Shown here in pieces: positions 29,130 through 60,316 of a DNA stretch of 64,000 nt. Source of the stretch: Planctomycetota bacterium (GTDB taxonomy: Bacteria > Planctomycetota > Phycisphaerae > Phycisphaerales > SM1A02). Under the pieces are notes generated by a model, which did not search any database, was not told where the DNA came from, and worked only from the letters and a program-made list of their open reading frames with translations. The translations under genes and the position numbers were made by a program. Positions within the stretch are counted from its first letter, which is position 1, and every line of letters begins with the position of its first letter. Location: the NCBI GenBank assembly GCA_017859745.1, contig JAFMML010000002.1, positions 18,756-82,755 on the forward strand. The letters are read 5' to 3'.

Positions 29130-30608
29130 TCAGACCCGGAGCTCCGGGGTCTCGTCCAAGCGGCCGTGGTAGCGACTTCGGATCGGCTGGACGAGACCTT
29201 CGAGAACGCGTTCGACCTGTTCGGGGCTGCGACCGATGAAGGCGGAGGGGTTTGGAGCTTCGGTCAGGCCGGCGAACATCGCCTCGTTCGCCAGCGATTC
29301 GAGCAGAGCGGGGGCCTCGCCCCGATGGCGCCGGGACTGCGCCTCGCGACTGTGCCGTCGGATCACCTCGTGCGCCTCCTGGCGATCGGCGCCTCGCGCC
29401 ACCGCTGCCATGAGCAACCGCTCGGTGGCGAGGAATGGAAGCTCCGCATCGAGGCGGGCCGCGATCGCCGCCTCATGCACCTCGAGGCCGCCGGCGATGT
29501 CGATGGCAAGATCGAGCGCGCCGTCGAGGGCGAGGAACGCCTCGGGAATCGCCAGACGTCGCAGCGACGAGTCGTCGAGACTGCGCTCGAGCCACTGCAC
29601 CGCTGCGGTCTGCAGGACCGGGGCCTGCAGCGACAGCACGAATCGGGACAGGCCGCACGCCCGTTCGCATCGCATCGGATTCCGCTTGTAGGCCATGGCC
29701 GAGGAGCCCACCTGATCCCGGCCGATGGGTTCGGAGATCTCGCCGAGACCCGCCAGCAGGCGAAGGTCGGTGGCCCACTTGTGGATCGATGCCGCCGCGA
29801 GGGCAAGGCCTCCAAGCAATCGGGCGTCGGCGAGGCGGGGCATGGTCTGCCCGCAGATCGGCCAGCAGGAGTCGGCGTCGAACCCGAGACGTTCCGCAAA
29901 TCCCGCCTCGAGGCGATCGACCATGGTCGCGTCGCCACCGAAGAGGTCGAGATAGGAGGCCTGGGTGCCGGTCGCCCCTCGAAGGCCCTTCAGACGCAGA
30001 TCGCCTTGGAGATGCTCGATCTCGGTCAGGGCCGTCGCGAAGTCCTGCGCCCAGAGGCAGGCACGCCGGCCGACCGTGGTCGGTTGCGCCGACTGGAAGT
30101 GCGTGAATCCCAGAGTCGGCAGGTCACGGTGCGTGGCCGCGAACGTACCGAGGCGGTCGACGACTCGGGCGAGCTTGACCGCGACGACATCGAGGGCCTC
30201 GCGCCATTGCAGGACCTCGGCGTTGCAGACCACGTCCTGGCTGGTGAGACCCAGGTGGATGACGCCGCGTGCCGCGGGGGCAGCCTCTCCGAAGGCGTGC
30301 ACGTGGGCCATGACGTCGTGGCGGATGCGGGCCTCGTGCCGGGCGGCGCTCTCGAAGTCGATCTGGTCGAGGGTCGTCCTCATCTGGGCGACCGCCTCCT
30401 CGGAGATGTCGAGGCCGAGCTCTCGCTGGGTTTCCGCCGCCGCAAGCCAGATGCGTCGCCAAAGCCCGAACCGATGCTGTTCGGACCAGATTCGACGCAT
30501 CGCCCGCGAGGCGTTGCGGGTCTCGAGCGGCGATCGATACCCGTGCTCGGGTCGGTCGGCGGTTGTGTGCGGAGTCTCGATGGCGGCTTCTCTGGGGATC
30601 GTGGTCAT
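29130..30608 (-). CDS. purB: Adenylosuccinate lyase
   Basis: 492 aa cytoplasmic enzyme acting twice in purine synthesis (SAICAR to AICAR, and adenylosuccinate to AMP). The fumarase-superfamily signature GSSAMAYKRNPMRCE contains the catalytic Ser loop; HLGLTSQDVVCNAE and THFQSAQPTTVG hold the other active-site His and Thr/Ser residues. The length (about 490) and KGLRGATGTQASYLDLFGGD place it with the longer, eukaryote-like clade rather than the 430-aa Bacillus type. The ATG at 30608 begins a slightly extended N-terminus. It lies 39 nt downstream of... in transcription order, it precedes the isochorismatase-fold gene with a 65-nt gap. Confidence 0.93.
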   Translation of the reverse strand: MTTIPREAAIETPHTTADRPEHGYRSPLETRNASRAMRRIWSEQHRFGLWRRIWLAAAETQRELGLDISEEAVAQMRTTLDQIDFESAARHEARIRHDVMAHVHAFGEAAPAARGVIHLGLTSQDVVCNAEVLQWREALDVVAVKLARVVDRLGTFAATHRDLPTLGFTHFQSAQPTTVGRRACLWAQDFATALTEIEHLQGDLRLKGLRGATGTQASYLDLFGGDATMVDRLEAGFAERLGFDADSCWPICGQTMPRLADARLLGGLALAAASIHKWATDLRLLAGLGEISEPIGRDQVGSSAMAYKRNPMRCERACGLSRFVLSLQAPVLQTAAVQWLERSLDDSSLRRLAIPEAFLALDGALDLAIDIAGGLEVHEAAIAARLDAELPFLATERLLMAAVARGADRQEAHEVIRRHSREAQSRRHRGEAPALLESLANEAMFAGLTEAPNPSAFIGRSPEQVERVLEGLVQPIRSRYHGRLDETPELRV

Positions 30609-30647: not shown

Positions 30648-31469
30648 TCAGCGGTTCGGGGGCGGATTCCGTCCGGCGTCGGGGCCGCGTTCGGACTCGG
30701 GATCGGGCGTGCCGATTCGCGGCTCGGTGCCGGCGAGGATTCTCGCAAGGTTGCTCCGGTGCCGAATCATCACGAGCGCCGCGATGATCAGCGTGGCGAC
30801 GAGAAGCGGCGTGGCAGCGGCCGGGCGGTCGGCCTGCAGCGACTGGATGAGGAGCACCGCCGGTGGAGCGCATGCCGCCACGATGCTCGCGACCGCCATC
30901 AGGCGCGTCGCCGCCAGCAGGATCGCCCAGGCCAGCAATGCGCCCAGCAGCGGCCAGGTCAGCAGCGGCCAAAGGGCGACGAGGGCGCCGAAGCCCGTGG
31001 CCACGCCCTTGCCTCCCCGGAAGCCGACCCATGGAGAGAACACGTGTCCGAGGATCGCGGCGACCGCCACCGCCAGCCACTCGGTCGTTGCGGAGGATGG
31101 GGCGTCTGCGAGAGGGATGCCCCAGATGCCTCTCCACAGCCCGAACGCCGCGACCGGCGCCGCTCCCTTGAAGGCATCGAGCACGAAGCATGCGACGCCC
31201 CAGCGACGCCCCAACGCTCGGCCGAGATTGGTCGCACCGATGTTCCCCGAGCCGACCGTGCGGATGTCGATCCCTCGGAGGCGACCCAGCAAGAGCGCAA
31301 ACGGAACGCTGCCGCACAGGAACGATGCCACCAGCATCGCCACCAGCGCCGGGACGCCGATCGCGACGCTGGGAGATCCGGAGATCCCGGCAAGCAAGGG
31401 CGAAGCGCCGGTGGAAGCGAGGGAGATGACTTCGAGCACGGGGGCGTCCTTGAACCGAGAAGCGTCCAT
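30648..31469 (-). CDS. plsY: Acyl-phosphate:glycerol-3-phosphate acyltransferase PlsY
   Basis: 273 aa inner-membrane enzyme making lysophosphatidate, the first step of phospholipid synthesis. The three PlsY motifs are present: GSVPFALLLGRLRGIDIRTV with SGNIGATNLGR, LDAFKGAAPVA, and GHVFSPWVGFRGGKGVATG. Several transmembrane segments are evident. It is longer than typical PlsY (about 200 aa) owing to an N-terminal extension of about 45 residues and a polar Pro/Arg tail. The ATG at 31469 is used; a GTG at 31496 is in frame, but a 14-bp tandem repeat spans this region and no clear ribosome-binding site favours either. Confidence 0.9.
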   Translation of the reverse strand: MDASRFKDAPVLEVISLASTGASPLLAGISGSPSVAIGVPALVAMLVASFLCGSVPFALLLGRLRGIDIRTVGSGNIGATNLGRALGRRWGVACFVLDAFKGAAPVAAFGLWRGIWGIPLADAPSSATTEWLAVAVAAILGHVFSPWVGFRGGKGVATGFGALVALWPLLTWPLLGALLAWAILLAATRLMAVASIVAACAPPAVLLIQSLQADRPAAATPLLVATLIIAALVMIRHRSNLARILAGTEPRIGTPDPESERGPDAGRNPPPNR

Positions 31470-31490
31470 CGAGAAACGTCCATCGAGAAA
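31463..31490. repeat. 14-bp tandem repeat across the plsY start
   Basis: CGTCCATCGAGAAA is present twice in direct succession (31463-31476, 31477-31490), followed by a partial CGTCACGAGA. The unit contains the reverse complement of ATG and is not a multiple of three, so gain or loss of one unit would change which upstream start is in frame with plsY. Confidence 0.8.
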
Positions 31491-31517
31491 CGTCACGAGA
31501 AGCAGATGGTCGCCGGG

Positions 31518-32588
31518 TCAGCGCCGATCGAAGAGAAGCAGGGCGATCGCGGCGAGTTGCAGCAGCACCGCGCCGAGAAACCACTTGGCCAGCAGCATCG
31601 GTTCGGCGGATTGCATCAGACCGATGGCGGCGGCAAGCAGCACGCCGAGTTCGAGGAGCAGCGCCACCACGCGTCCGCCGGTGAGGTCGCGGGCGCCGGC
31701 GCGAGTCTGCCGAAGTTCCTCGGTGAGGTCGCGCATCGCCGAAAGCAAAGCCTCGTCCCGAGACGAGTCGGTCCTGCGGGGACGCGAGGCGTCGTCCCGA
31801 CCGGCCCGGCCCCCAACCGCGGGGGTGGACTCGGAAGTGCGTGGCGAGGTTCGGGGCGTGTCGACGACGGGCTGTTCCGGCCTCGAGGGCCGCGGTTGGG
31901 ACGTCGTGCTTGCAGTCTTGCCGCCCGAGCGTCGAGGCGACGGCTCGGGAGCGACCCGCGTCGAGGCTGGGGGAGATGTCGGCAAGGCGGCGCCCGCCAC
32001 CGAAGCGGCGAGGACCACGTCCGGGTGCCTGTTCAGGACCTCGACCTCGGGGGTGTCGGCGGAACGGTCGGGGACGCGCTCGGTCGAGGCGCCGAGCACC
32101 GCGTCGACGGCGCTCGCGAGGTCGAGCGACATCGAAGCGTCGCCGGAGGCCGACAGGGTCGCGATGCGCATGCCCGCAGCTCGAGCGGCGGTGAGATCAT
32201 CCTCTCGTCCCGCGAGCATCCAACTGTCGGAGAGATCCAGATCGAGGTCCTCGGCGGCCTGCAGCAGCATGCCGGTCCGTGGCTTCCGCCAAGGGTGATC
32301 GAACCGATACCGGTCGAGTTCGGCCTCGGGGGAGAACGGGCACCAGTAGAAGCGATCGATCGGGGACTCGCCGCCGTGGATCGCCAGACCTGCTGCGAGC
32401 AGGCGGTCGGCGTCCTGGACCTCGCGCTCGGTTCGCGTCCCGGCCCCGACGGTGGGTTCGTTGCTTGCGGCCACGATGGCGAAGCCGGCATCGCGGAGGC
32501 GTCGAAGCTCGTCGCCGACCGAGGACGGGTCCGTCGCGACGGCACGCTCGAGATCGTGGCGATCGATGAAGCAGGCGGGTCGGGGCAT
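31518..32588 (-). CDS. Degenerate HAD-IIIA (GmhB-like) domain fused to a C-terminal two-helix membrane anchor
   Basis: 356 aa. The start is the ATG at 32588 (MPRPACFIDRHD). Residues 1-145 align with histidinol-phosphatase/GmhB-type HAD phosphatases: FIDRHD at motif I, AASNEP at motif II, WRKPRTGMLLQAA at motif III, LAGREDDLTAARAAGM at motif IV. Key residues are altered: the second motif I Asp is His11, the metal-binding Asp of motif IV is Arg128, and the CxH...CxC zinc loop is reduced to Cys83. Catalysis is therefore doubtful. A Pro/Ser/Arg-rich linker (about 180-280) leads to a short helix and two hydrophobic segments (VVALLLELGVLLAAAIGL, LGAVLLQLAAIALLLF). It lies 31 nt after pfkA and probably shares its transcript. 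Confidence 0.75.
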   Translation of the reverse strand: MPRPACFIDRHDLERAVATDPSSVGDELRRLRDAGFAIVAASNEPTVGAGTRTEREVQDADRLLAAGLAIHGGESPIDRFYWCPFSPEAELDRYRFDHPWRKPRTGMLLQAAEDLDLDLSDSWMLAGREDDLTAARAAGMRIATLSASGDASMSLDLASAVDAVLGASTERVPDRSADTPEVEVLNRHPDVVLAASVAGAALPTSPPASTRVAPEPSPRRSGGKTASTTSQPRPSRPEQPVVDTPRTSPRTSESTPAVGGRAGRDDASRPRRTDSSRDEALLSAMRDLTEELRQTRAGARDLTGGRVVALLLELGVLLAAAIGLMQSAEPMLLAKWFLGAVLLQLAAIALLLFDRR

Positions 32589-32619: not shown

Positions 32620-33768
32620 TCAGCAGATGACCGACGGGGGGCGAGCGCCGGGCGGGACTTCGAGGGTTGCGCCGAAACTCGTTCCCACCGCGCGGGCGGC
32701 GTCGAGGATCGGATCGCCAAGCGGAATGGTCCGTTGACGCCCGGCGGCATGAAGCAGATCCACGTCGGTGTAGGTCTGCCGTTGGCGCACGATCAGTCGG
32801 TTTCGGGCCCCATCCATGAGAGCGCTGACGGCCCAGAAGCCGAAATTGGTGGCCAACACCCGGTCCGCCGCGATCGGCGCCCCACCCCTTTGCACGTGGC
32901 CGAGAACGGTGGTGCGGGTCTCCAGTCCGGTTCGGGCTCCGATCTCATGCGCGACGACGGCGCCGATGCCGCCAAGGCGAATCGGGTCGGCGCTCTGGAC
33001 ATCGACCTGGGCGACCACGGCCTCGCCGTTCTTGGGACGAGCTCCCTCGGCCACCACGACGATCGCGAATCCGGGCCCGTGGCGACGGCGGGCGTCGATG
33101 AACTCGCAGATCGAGTCCCACTGGAAGGGCAGCTCCGGGATCAGGATCACATCGGATCCGCTCGCGACGCCGGCGGTGGCGGCGATCCAGCCGGCGTTTC
33201 GCCCCATGACCTCGCAGACCATCACCCGGTGATGGCTCTCGGCCGTCGAGTGGAGCTTGTCGATCGCCTCGGTGGCGGTCGCGACCGCGGTGAGGAACCC
33301 GATCGTGATCTCGGAGCCGACGAGATCGTTGTCGATGGTCTTGGGAATGCCGATCACGTTGATCCCGCACTCGATGAGTCTCGAGGCGGCGCTCATGGTC
33401 CCGTCCCCGCCGATCACCACGAGCGTGTCGATTCCGTGTCGCTCCACCGTTTCGACGCAACGCGGCCTGAGGTCCTCGTGCAGCGCGTTGCCGTGCTCGT
33501 CGGTCCCGACGAACTGTCGGGCGGGATTGGCTCGGTTGTTGCTGCCGAGGATCGTGCCGCCGCGGGTCAGGATGCCGGAGACGTCTCGCGGATCGAGACT
33601 TCGGCACCGCCCCTCGATGAGTCCGAGGAACCCGTCGGCGATGCCGACCACCTCGAGGCCGTATCGGTAGATCGCCGTCTTGGCGACGGAGCGGATCGTG
33701 GCGTTGAGGCCGGGGCAGTCGCCGCCTGCGGTCATCACGCCGATGCGTCGGATGGGGCGTTGGGACAT
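32620..33768 (-). CDS. pfkA: 6-phosphofructokinase
   Basis: 382 aa glycolytic kinase converting fructose-6-phosphate to fructose-1,6-bisphosphate. GGDCPGLNATIR is the N-terminal nucleotide loop. GGDGTM (120-125) has Gly at the position that distinguishes ATP- from PPi-using enzymes (Asp in PPi-PFK), which argues for ATP. PKTIDND (142-148) has Lys143 where E. coli PfkA has Gly, a feature of the longer group III/PPi-related lineage. MGRNAGWIA and GHVQRGGAP are substrate-binding motifs. The mix suggests an ATP-dependent member of the group III clade; PPi use is not excluded. It is divergent from lysS with 80 bp between start codons. Confidence 0.92.
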   Translation of the reverse strand: MSQRPIRRIGVMTAGGDCPGLNATIRSVAKTAIYRYGLEVVGIADGFLGLIEGRCRSLDPRDVSGILTRGGTILGSNNRANPARQFVGTDEHGNALHEDLRPRCVETVERHGIDTLVVIGGDGTMSAASRLIECGINVIGIPKTIDNDLVGSEITIGFLTAVATATEAIDKLHSTAESHHRVMVCEVMGRNAGWIAATAGVASGSDVILIPELPFQWDSICEFIDARRRHGPGFAIVVVAEGARPKNGEAVVAQVDVQSADPIRLGGIGAVVAHEIGARTGLETRTTVLGHVQRGGAPIAADRVLATNFGFWAVSALMDGARNRLIVRQRQTYTDVDLLHAAGRQRTIPLGDPILDAARAVGTSFGATLEVPPGARPPSVIC

Positions 33769-59722: not shown

Positions 59723-60316
59723 ATGCAGAAGACCACCTGCGCCTCGGCCCAACAGTATCTCGACCGCCTCGGCGAACTTCTCGGACGGCTCGACGCCGCC
59801 GCGATCGATGCCCTGACCGATCGCATCGTGCAGCGGTGGGAGGACGACGCCTGCGTCCTCGTCGCGGGAAATGGTGGCAGCGCTTCGACTGCGAGCCACT
59901 ACGTCACCGATCTGGTCAAGACCGCGTGGGTACCGGGGCTGAGACGCCTCCGGGCCCTGTCCCTGACGGAGAATCCAGGCCTTACGACGGCGCTCGGCAA
60001 CGACATCGCCTTCGATGAGACGCTCTCGTTCCCGCTCGAGTCCTACGGCCGTGAGGGCGATCTGCTGATCGCCATCAGCGGCTCCGGAAACAGCCCCAAC
60101 ATCGTCAAGGCCTGCGAACTCGCCCGCGAGCGCGGTCTCGAGGTCGCGGCACTGACCGGCTTCGACGGAGGTGCCATCGGTCGCATGGCCGACCTGCATG
60201 TCAACGTGCCCAGCGACAACTACGGGCTCGTCGAGGACGTCCACCTCTCGATCGGACACATGCTTGGCCAGGGCCTTCGGGCCCGCCTGGTGGGGCGGAC
60301 TCCGGCGGTGGGTTGA
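59723..60316 (+). CDS. Phosphoheptose isomerase-like SIS protein (GmhA type)
   Basis: 197 aa cytoplasmic SIS-domain isomerase, resembling GmhA, which converts sedoheptulose-7-phosphate to heptose-7-phosphate for LPS or glycan heptose. CVLVAGNGGSASTASHYVTD and LLIAISGSGNSPNIV hold the sugar-phosphate-binding loops, and DNYGLVEDVHLSIGHM carries the Glu/His active-site region. DiaA-like relatives share these features, so the reaction is inferred. It opens a three-gene surface-sugar cluster. Confidence 0.85.
   Translation: MQKTTCASAQQYLDRLGELLGRLDAAAIDALTDRIVQRWEDDACVLVAGNGGSASTASHYVTDLVKTAWVPGLRRLRALSLTENPGLTTALGNDIAFDETLSFPLESYGREGDLLIAISGSGNSPNIVKACELARERGLEVAALTGFDGGAIGRMADLHVNVPSDNYGLVEDVHLSIGHMLGQGLRARLVGRTPAVG

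Follow-up and report, generated by a model that had tools for sequence, protein, structure and literature searches.

A membrane-anchored GmhB-like HAD protein that has lost catalytic residues and may have a non-catalytic role in a genus of Phycisphaerae

What keeps a gene for a phosphatase-like protein in place when the residues needed for catalysis appear to be gone? This question is raised by a gene located between pfkA and plsY in a 64,000-nt stretch of planctomycete DNA (contig JAFMML010000002.1 of the assembly GCA_017859745.1), here referred to as the window. Its product (the HAD-TM protein) combines a GmhB-like domain of the HAD superfamily with a long linker and a C-terminal membrane hairpin. 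The features of the locus are as follows.

31518..32588, minus strand: HAD-TM gene (356 aa, ATG start at 32588), coding for a putative GmhB-like pseudophosphatase with a linker and a membrane hairpin
32082..32588, minus strand: HAD domain, residues 1-169; model blocks mostly at pLDDT 90-98, with 76-77 at residues 141-160
32556..32564, minus strand: motif I, Asp9-Arg10-His11; the nucleophile position is retained, and His takes the place of the second Asp
32457..32465, minus strand: motif II, Ser42-Asn43-Glu44; Glu versus the Gln found in 104 of 108 homologues
32283..32285, minus strand: motif III Lys102 (WRKP), retained according to the alignment
32205..32213, minus strand: motif IV, Ala126-Gly127-Arg128 versus Gly-Asp-x; the metal ligand is gone
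31767..32081, minus strand: linker, residues 170-274; model confidence mostly low, 18-38% identity inside the genus
31524..31766, minus strand: charged pre-membrane helix (residues 275-299) and membrane helices 304-325 and 330-355, predicted from the model and hydrophobicity
32620..33768, minus strand: pfkA, upstream neighbour, 31 nt from the HAD-TM gene
30648..31496, minus strand: plsY, downstream neighbour (listed start, the true start being uncertain); in many relatives a GT9 gene intervenes
29130..30608, minus strand: purB, the next gene of the conserved neighbourhood after plsY, identified by profile hits

The HAD-TM open reading frame is a real gene with an operon-like placement between pfkA and plsY; it ends 21 nt before the listed plsY start, and pfkA, HAD-TM, plsY, and purB are all on the same strand. 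The only Pfam model that the protein matches above the cut-off is Hydrolase_like. Its best NCBIfam match is the GmhB model PRK08942 (E 7.1e-17), with 61.5 bits against a cut-off of 178, and TIGR00213 scores 55.4 against a cut-off of 149.6. The best PRK08942 match was also below 178 in all 19 relatives searched, so the curated GmhB cut-off discriminates little here, and no full-length model for the family was present among the Pfam and NCBIfam matches. An AlphaFold2 model was built from an alignment of 81 sequences. Of the 112 loci, 34 had been excluded from this alignment as duplicates, paralogues, a fusion, rows without the hairpin, or members of the window's genus, the three rows of which were then put back. 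In the model, the HAD core is predicted with high confidence and the linker with low confidence; a pre-membrane helix follows, and then two more long helices that are hydrophobic in each of the three genus genomes. The best Foldseek match in the PDB is E. coli GmhB (2gmw, E 3.4e-11, TM 0.72 by target length). The profile and the structure searches therefore bear out the GmhB-like HAD framework that an earlier note had proposed from the letters alone.

The HAD-TM gene is an orthologue of a membrane-anchored GmhB-type (HAD-IIIA) phosphatase that is widespread in Phycisphaerae. The search for related loci retained 80 of at least 562 confirmed matches. The comparison uses 108 distinct rows, chosen by pattern (D-[RG] at motif I and [RK]P..G[ML] at motif III), which include two soluble paralogues from the genus (L002 and L032), some hairpin-less rows, and a row that ends at a contig end (L079). 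The window protein carries the family signature: a HAD domain with YxCP and HxWRKP, a linker, and two membrane helices. A hairpin profile matches 77 of the 108 distinct homologues, or 83 when the search is restricted to those proteins, the count varying with search size; among 181 genomes of the same family it matches 58, in a single copy in all but one of them (57/58). This spread rules out a lineage-specific gain of the hairpin. That the hairpin is a module shared with further proteins encoded in the window's genome was also considered and rejected, as the one other match there is insignificant (E 0.59) and no convincing second copy was detected. The zinc loop has a similar history. At the columns of the CxC zinc ligands of E. 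coli GmhB, the family reads H-x-W (His in 99 of the 108 rows, Trp in 103), and the first zinc-loop Cys is found in 104 rows, including the window protein (C83); the family profile matches 2gmw with an E of 6.9e-52, in an alignment that displays the replaced CxC columns. The earlier note was right that zinc-loop cysteines are missing and that a long linker, modelled with low confidence, and two hydrophobic C-terminal helices are present. It was mistaken in treating the cysteine loss as a change in this protein and the linker and membrane segments as gained by it: on the sequences compared, the linker, the hairpin, and the missing CxC are family traits rather than novelties, and membrane tethering is older than the genus. 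At one locus (L080:4730-6293), the HAD domain and a GT9-like heptosyltransferase tail apparently form a fusion within a single open reading frame, as judged by eye from the C-terminus.

The catalytic residues are a different matter. In a 27-row alignment, the D-R-D of the relatives corresponds to D9-R10-H11 in the window protein, and their G-D to A126-G127; the window protein retains D131, Ser42, and Lys102. His at the second motif I Asp had been read correctly at the outset, but the Arg that had been placed at the motif IV metal Asp is one column off. With W123 and D131 as anchors, the rows align gap-free: Arg128 falls in the column that usually holds Gln, and Gly127 in that of the metal Asp; Arg as the motif IV replacement would need a gap unsupported by any other row. 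Of the 108 distinct homologues, 104 have the second motif I Asp and 100 have the motif IV Asp, which is replaced by Asn in 4 others. Both residues are present in 100 rows, and both are lost in only 4, namely, the three genus rows and a protein from Phycisphaeraceae SP4387 (L042). The rows with Asn (L087, L090, L100, and L112) have an intact motif I.

Several further changes are seen in the genus. The span from the nucleophile to motif II, which is 42 residues in 101 of the 108 rows, is 33, 27, and 36 residues there, corresponding to deletions of 6 to 15 residues between motifs I and II. The motif II Gln has become Glu, and both the CPxH His and the conserved Arg of the VARG motif, a substrate residue in GmhB, are gone. 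The stretch after motif I also differs between the models: for L025, an orthologue whose motifs are intact, it comprises loops, single strand residues, and a helix of three residues, whereas in the window model a helix starts immediately after the first strand. The nucleophile Asp and Lys102 are retained throughout the genus; the presence of the former in 108 of 108 rows follows from the construction of the selection pattern. Against the motifs of GmhB, the window protein retains the motif II Ser/Thr and motif III Lys as Ser42 and Lys102. The motif IV signature, (G/S)D followed by a second Asp, is reduced to Asp131, with Ala-Gly and Ala-Ala in the sister genomes G001 and G002, respectively. 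The motif I signature, described as DxDx(T/V) (PMC8204981), is absent from the window protein (D-R-H) and from the sister proteins (D-R-A in G001 and D-R-R in G002).

Because the motifs are intact outside the genus and the loss extends across all of it, the changes are, on this alignment, a derived loss within the genus and not a misalignment or a mutation in a single genome. The comparison with close homologues that the earlier note had called for shows the losses in all three genus genomes. The intact-motif homologues that it would have taken as a sign of local mutation or misalignment do exist outside the genus (100/108), but the genus-wide pattern excludes both explanations. A sequencing or assembly error, or a mutation confined to one genome, might be suspected in a fragmented assembly of 147 contigs, but its probability is negligible, as the residues are likewise lost in the two other, separate genomes, whose proteins are just 46-49% identical to that of the window.

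From these residues, we infer that the window protein can hardly hydrolyse phosphate esters. It might still act as an enzyme on a new substrate or by a rearranged mechanism, through Asp9 and Lys102 and with other residues replacing the lost acid and metal ligands. The retention of these two residues in the genus would fit such a scheme, as would an intact-motif clade, referred to below as g45, that presumably acts on something besides HldE products. However, no new conserved catalyst can be discerned: the second motif I position is His, Ala, or Arg and the motif IV position Gly, Gly, or Ala, depending on the species, the post-motif I loop is shortened, and the VARG Arg is lost. A continued enzymatic activity therefore appears improbable. 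His11 as a new acid/base is rejected on the same grounds, since His is absent at that position in both sister genomes.

The gene neighbourhood points to the function that the family presumably had. The common order in relatives is lysS, pfkA, HAD, (GT9 and others), plsY, purB, and an isochorismatase-like gene, and the pfkA/plsY/purB neighbourhood is conserved at the window, at two further loci (L113 and L114), and in many relatives, but not at every locus. GT9 genes code for heptosyltransferases, and HldE and GmhA act in the heptose pathway. Of the 69 usable rows (those of the 108 with at least 1.5 kb of downstream sequence), 46 have a GT9 gene on the same strand no more than 3 kb downstream, and no row of the genus has one (four GT9 queries were used, one of them in a wrong frame). 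In profile searches, GT9 was detected in 85 of 101 genomes and an HldE-type kinase in 86 of 101 at an E of 1e-20, with only 1 of the 101 above the curated cut-off. HAD and GT9 matches occur together in 76 genomes, HAD alone in 5, GT9 alone in 9, and neither in 11; a HAD match in this tally may represent a paralogue or only the hairpin part, with at most 20 first-look candidates scored per genome, and the Fisher tests of the association ignore kinship. The phosphatase of this family probably serves the synthesis of ADP-heptose and the LPS core.

In the genus of the window, this pathway appears to be missing. Profile searches, which for the pathway genes were run on mostly fragmented draft genomes, detected neither GT9 nor an HldE-type kinase in any of the three genus genomes (96-100% complete), and neither was found in G046 or G065. 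LpxC was present in all 24 genomes tested; therefore, lipid A synthesis as such has not been lost, and a complete loss of lipid A is rejected. No GmhA-type match was detected in G001, and those in G000 and G002 are weaker than the matches in the GT9-bearing relatives compared. The window itself carries, at 59723-60316 on the plus strand, an open reading frame for a GmhA-like SIS-domain isomerase (112.7 bits to PRK13936, under its cut-off), which adjoins a glycosyltransferase-like open reading frame, with pheS further downstream. Elsewhere in their genomes, both G000 and G002 encode a soluble GmhB-like protein whose motifs are intact (in G000, its gene adjoins a sugar nucleotidyltransferase), and in G001 the search for GmhB-like genes returned the HAD-TM gene and no other.

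The same neighbourhood bears on the suggestion in the earlier note that the protein may have become a regulatory or binding protein next to pfkA. The short distance to pfkA in the window and the proximity of the two genes in many relatives could indicate a regulator of PfkA or of glycolysis that acts through sugar phosphate sensing. However, relatives whose motifs are intact also show the order pfkA-HAD-(GT9)-plsY-purB, so the link to pfkA looks like an inherited operon neighbourhood and gives no pointer to PfkA regulation, which must be considered very improbable. The more general part of the suggestion, a non-catalytic role, fits the genus-wide loss of residues and the constraint described next.

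Among the three genus genomes, the reading frame is open in all, and protein identity is 54-59% for the HAD domain, 52-61% for the hairpin, and 18-38% for the linker, as compared with 82-86% for pfkA and 68-73% for plsY. Within the HAD domain, the block 73-130 is 66-69% identical, about as conserved as plsY, with a distance of 0.14 at codon position 2 versus 0.43-0.48 at position 3; its flanks are looser (0.47-0.55 for residues 1-72 and 0.41-0.55 for 131-165). Neutral evolution was simulated at four rates between 0.40 and 0.54, which cover most of the observed third-position distances, with 2000 draws per rate; the draws comprised substitutions only and were compared for the HAD domain as a whole, the block, and the hairpin. 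Neutral identities peaked, at the mildest rate, at 0.46 (HAD domain), 0.52 (block), and 0.51 (hairpin), and the observed values are above all draws at all four rates. Stop codons arose in 1928 to 1976 of the 2000 draws per rate, and an open frame was kept in 24 to 72. These results indicate, at the level of codons and residues, purifying selection on the HAD core and the hairpin; the linker does not appear to be clearly constrained. A catalytic loss that is conserved in orthologues, in a gene that is under constraint, is what is expected of a pseudoenzyme and is the pattern seen here.

The main rival to a retained role is slow decay. According to this explanation, the protein is a relic whose purpose disappeared with the heptose route, and the remaining conservation is the slow tail of an old constraint or reflects protection of the operon transcript. 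The HAD-TM protein indeed evolves fast: the stem of the genus is long, at 2.15 changes per column of the HAD tree, and constraint is weaker on the HAD flanks than on the middle, as would also be expected of slow decay. In addition, no HAD match was found in 11 of the 16 GT9-less genomes, so retention is not the rule, a result that counts against a kept role. On the other side are the three open frames, the HAD, block, and hairpin identities above every neutral draw, the stop codons in nearly all of these draws, and the near-plsY conservation of the block, in view of which decay seems unlikely, if still a serious contender.

Retention of the protein after the apparent loss of the pathway can be followed in other lineages. 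In the g45 clade, neither GT9 nor an HldE-type kinase was found in any of the 13 genomes reached through the loci (the completeness of these genomes is not given; one of them, that of L038, has a HAD sequence identical to that of G046), and no GmhA-type match was found in any of the 8 tested. Nevertheless, the motifs are intact in all 16 rows placed in the clade by the tree, and these rows keep the hairpin, with L079 cut by the contig end. Since g45 is intact without HldE, GT9, or GmhA, heptose synthesis cannot be the only task of the family. The g45 loci include L028, L034, L036-L039, L062-L065, L069, L070, L075, and L079; three of these (L034, L069, and L070) are on contigs titled Limnohabitans or “Candidatus Kuenenia” but fall inside g45 in the HAD tree, and the titles look wrong. 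In G065, too, the HAD protein has a hairpin and intact motifs, and GT9 and an HldE-type kinase were not found. The HAD-TM protein thus outlives the presumed pathway in several lineages, bearing the hairpin in the cases seen.

A tree of lysS, pfkA, and purB (36 rows in which lysS and one or more of the other genes were available, five duplicates having been dropped; several of its forks are unsupported) joins g45 to g17, the tested genomes of which have both GT9 and an HldE-type kinase, and places the window genus (g1) apart. As this tree separates g45 from the window genus, the pathway was probably lost more than once, independently. For g45 as a direct intermediate toward the window genus, the same grouping leaves no place, and this possibility is rejected.

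The protein of Phycisphaeraceae SP4387 (L042, 5887-6945) is a second apparently dead member of the family, with D-R-E and G-S motifs, located elsewhere in the HAD tree than the window genus, on a long branch. It keeps the Lys and the hairpin. There is no GT9 gene at its locus, but GT9, an HldE-type kinase, and another GmhB-like gene are all present in the genome; the GmhB-like paralogue has Asn at the motif IV Asp. The change of TNQ to TNE is found in exactly the 4 dead rows of the 108, and the VARG Arg is lost in these 4 and 1 other. Absence of the CPxH His, seen in the 4 dead rows but also in 6 more (10 of 108 in total), is a weak sign of convergence. Common side changes in two dead lineages suggest more than random decay of the sequence. 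Two lineages are few, however, and these sites may simply become free to change once catalysis is gone.

Taken together, these data make it rather probable that the window protein descends from a heptose phosphatase and now persists, without catalysis, as a binding or scaffold protein tethered to the membrane, a reading in which the genus pattern is that of three genomes. The ancestral state would be a membrane-anchored GmhB-type phosphatase, often encoded directly before a GT9 gene and acting in ADP-heptose and LPS core synthesis. In the window genus, the HldE-type kinase and the GT9 transferases are gone by profile search, and the phosphatase has lost its Mg2+ ligands, some substrate residues, and part of the post-motif I loop, which would make hydrolysis hardly possible. 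The protein has nevertheless been retained, with the middle HAD block around Lys102 and the hairpin under purifying selection, and its current role would be that of a non-catalytic binding or scaffold protein at the cytoplasmic side of the inner membrane, with PlsY or other envelope-lipid enzymes as candidate partners. The second role may already exist in family members with intact motifs.

A wider reading can be put forward only tentatively, at somewhat less than even confidence. The membrane-anchored GmhB of Phycisphaerae could be bifunctional, combining heptose chemistry with a separately selected, hairpin-linked non-catalytic role. It could have outlived HldE and GT9 in three lineages (g1, g45, and G065) and become a pseudoenzyme twice (g1 and L042), by the convergent adaptation of the old active site to binding that the TNQ-to-TNE change and the loss of the VARG Arg in both g1 and L042 suggest.

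Whichever role the protein has, the family offers a replicated natural experiment on the passage from enzyme to pseudoenzyme, with intact orthologues in the same gene position, a pathway-less clade that has kept its residues, and two dead lineages. The data also suggest that planctomycetes have a membrane-anchored form of the heptose phosphatase. No description of a membrane-anchored or catalytically dead GmhB was found among the open PubMed Central papers listed, as covered by titles and the beginnings of abstracts. Annotation by fold alone would name the window protein a GmhB phosphatase.

Among known proteins, the closest comparison is with E. coli GmhB (2gmw/3l8e; PRK08942, TIGR00213), with which the window protein shares the fold and the sequence family as well as the motif II Ser, the motif III Lys, and RKPxxGM. 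It differs in the absence of the second motif I Asp, the motif IV Asp, the VARG Arg, and the zinc CxC, in the shortened post-motif I loop, and in the long linker and the membrane hairpin, and no HldE-type kinase or GT9 was found in its genome. The other membrane-anchored GmhB-like proteins of Phycisphaerae have the pfkA-HAD-(GT9)-plsY-purB order, linker, hairpin, YxCP, and HxWRKP in common with it. In contrast to the window protein, they mostly have intact DxD and GD motifs, and GT9 is commonly encoded downstream of them, in the proportions given above. A more distant parallel is PcrP, which, to our knowledge, has neither a membrane hairpin nor a tie to heptose synthesis. According to its description (PMC12632274), it belongs to the C1-cap phosphonatase lineage, unlike the window protein, and no homology past the superfamily is claimed. 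According to the same source (PMC12632274), PcrP is an inactive bacterial HAD-superfamily protein that binds partners, and the likeness of the PcrP/PA2803 subfamily of Pseudomonas to the protein proposed here consists in a HAD-superfamily membership, the loss of catalytic residues, and a protein-binding function.
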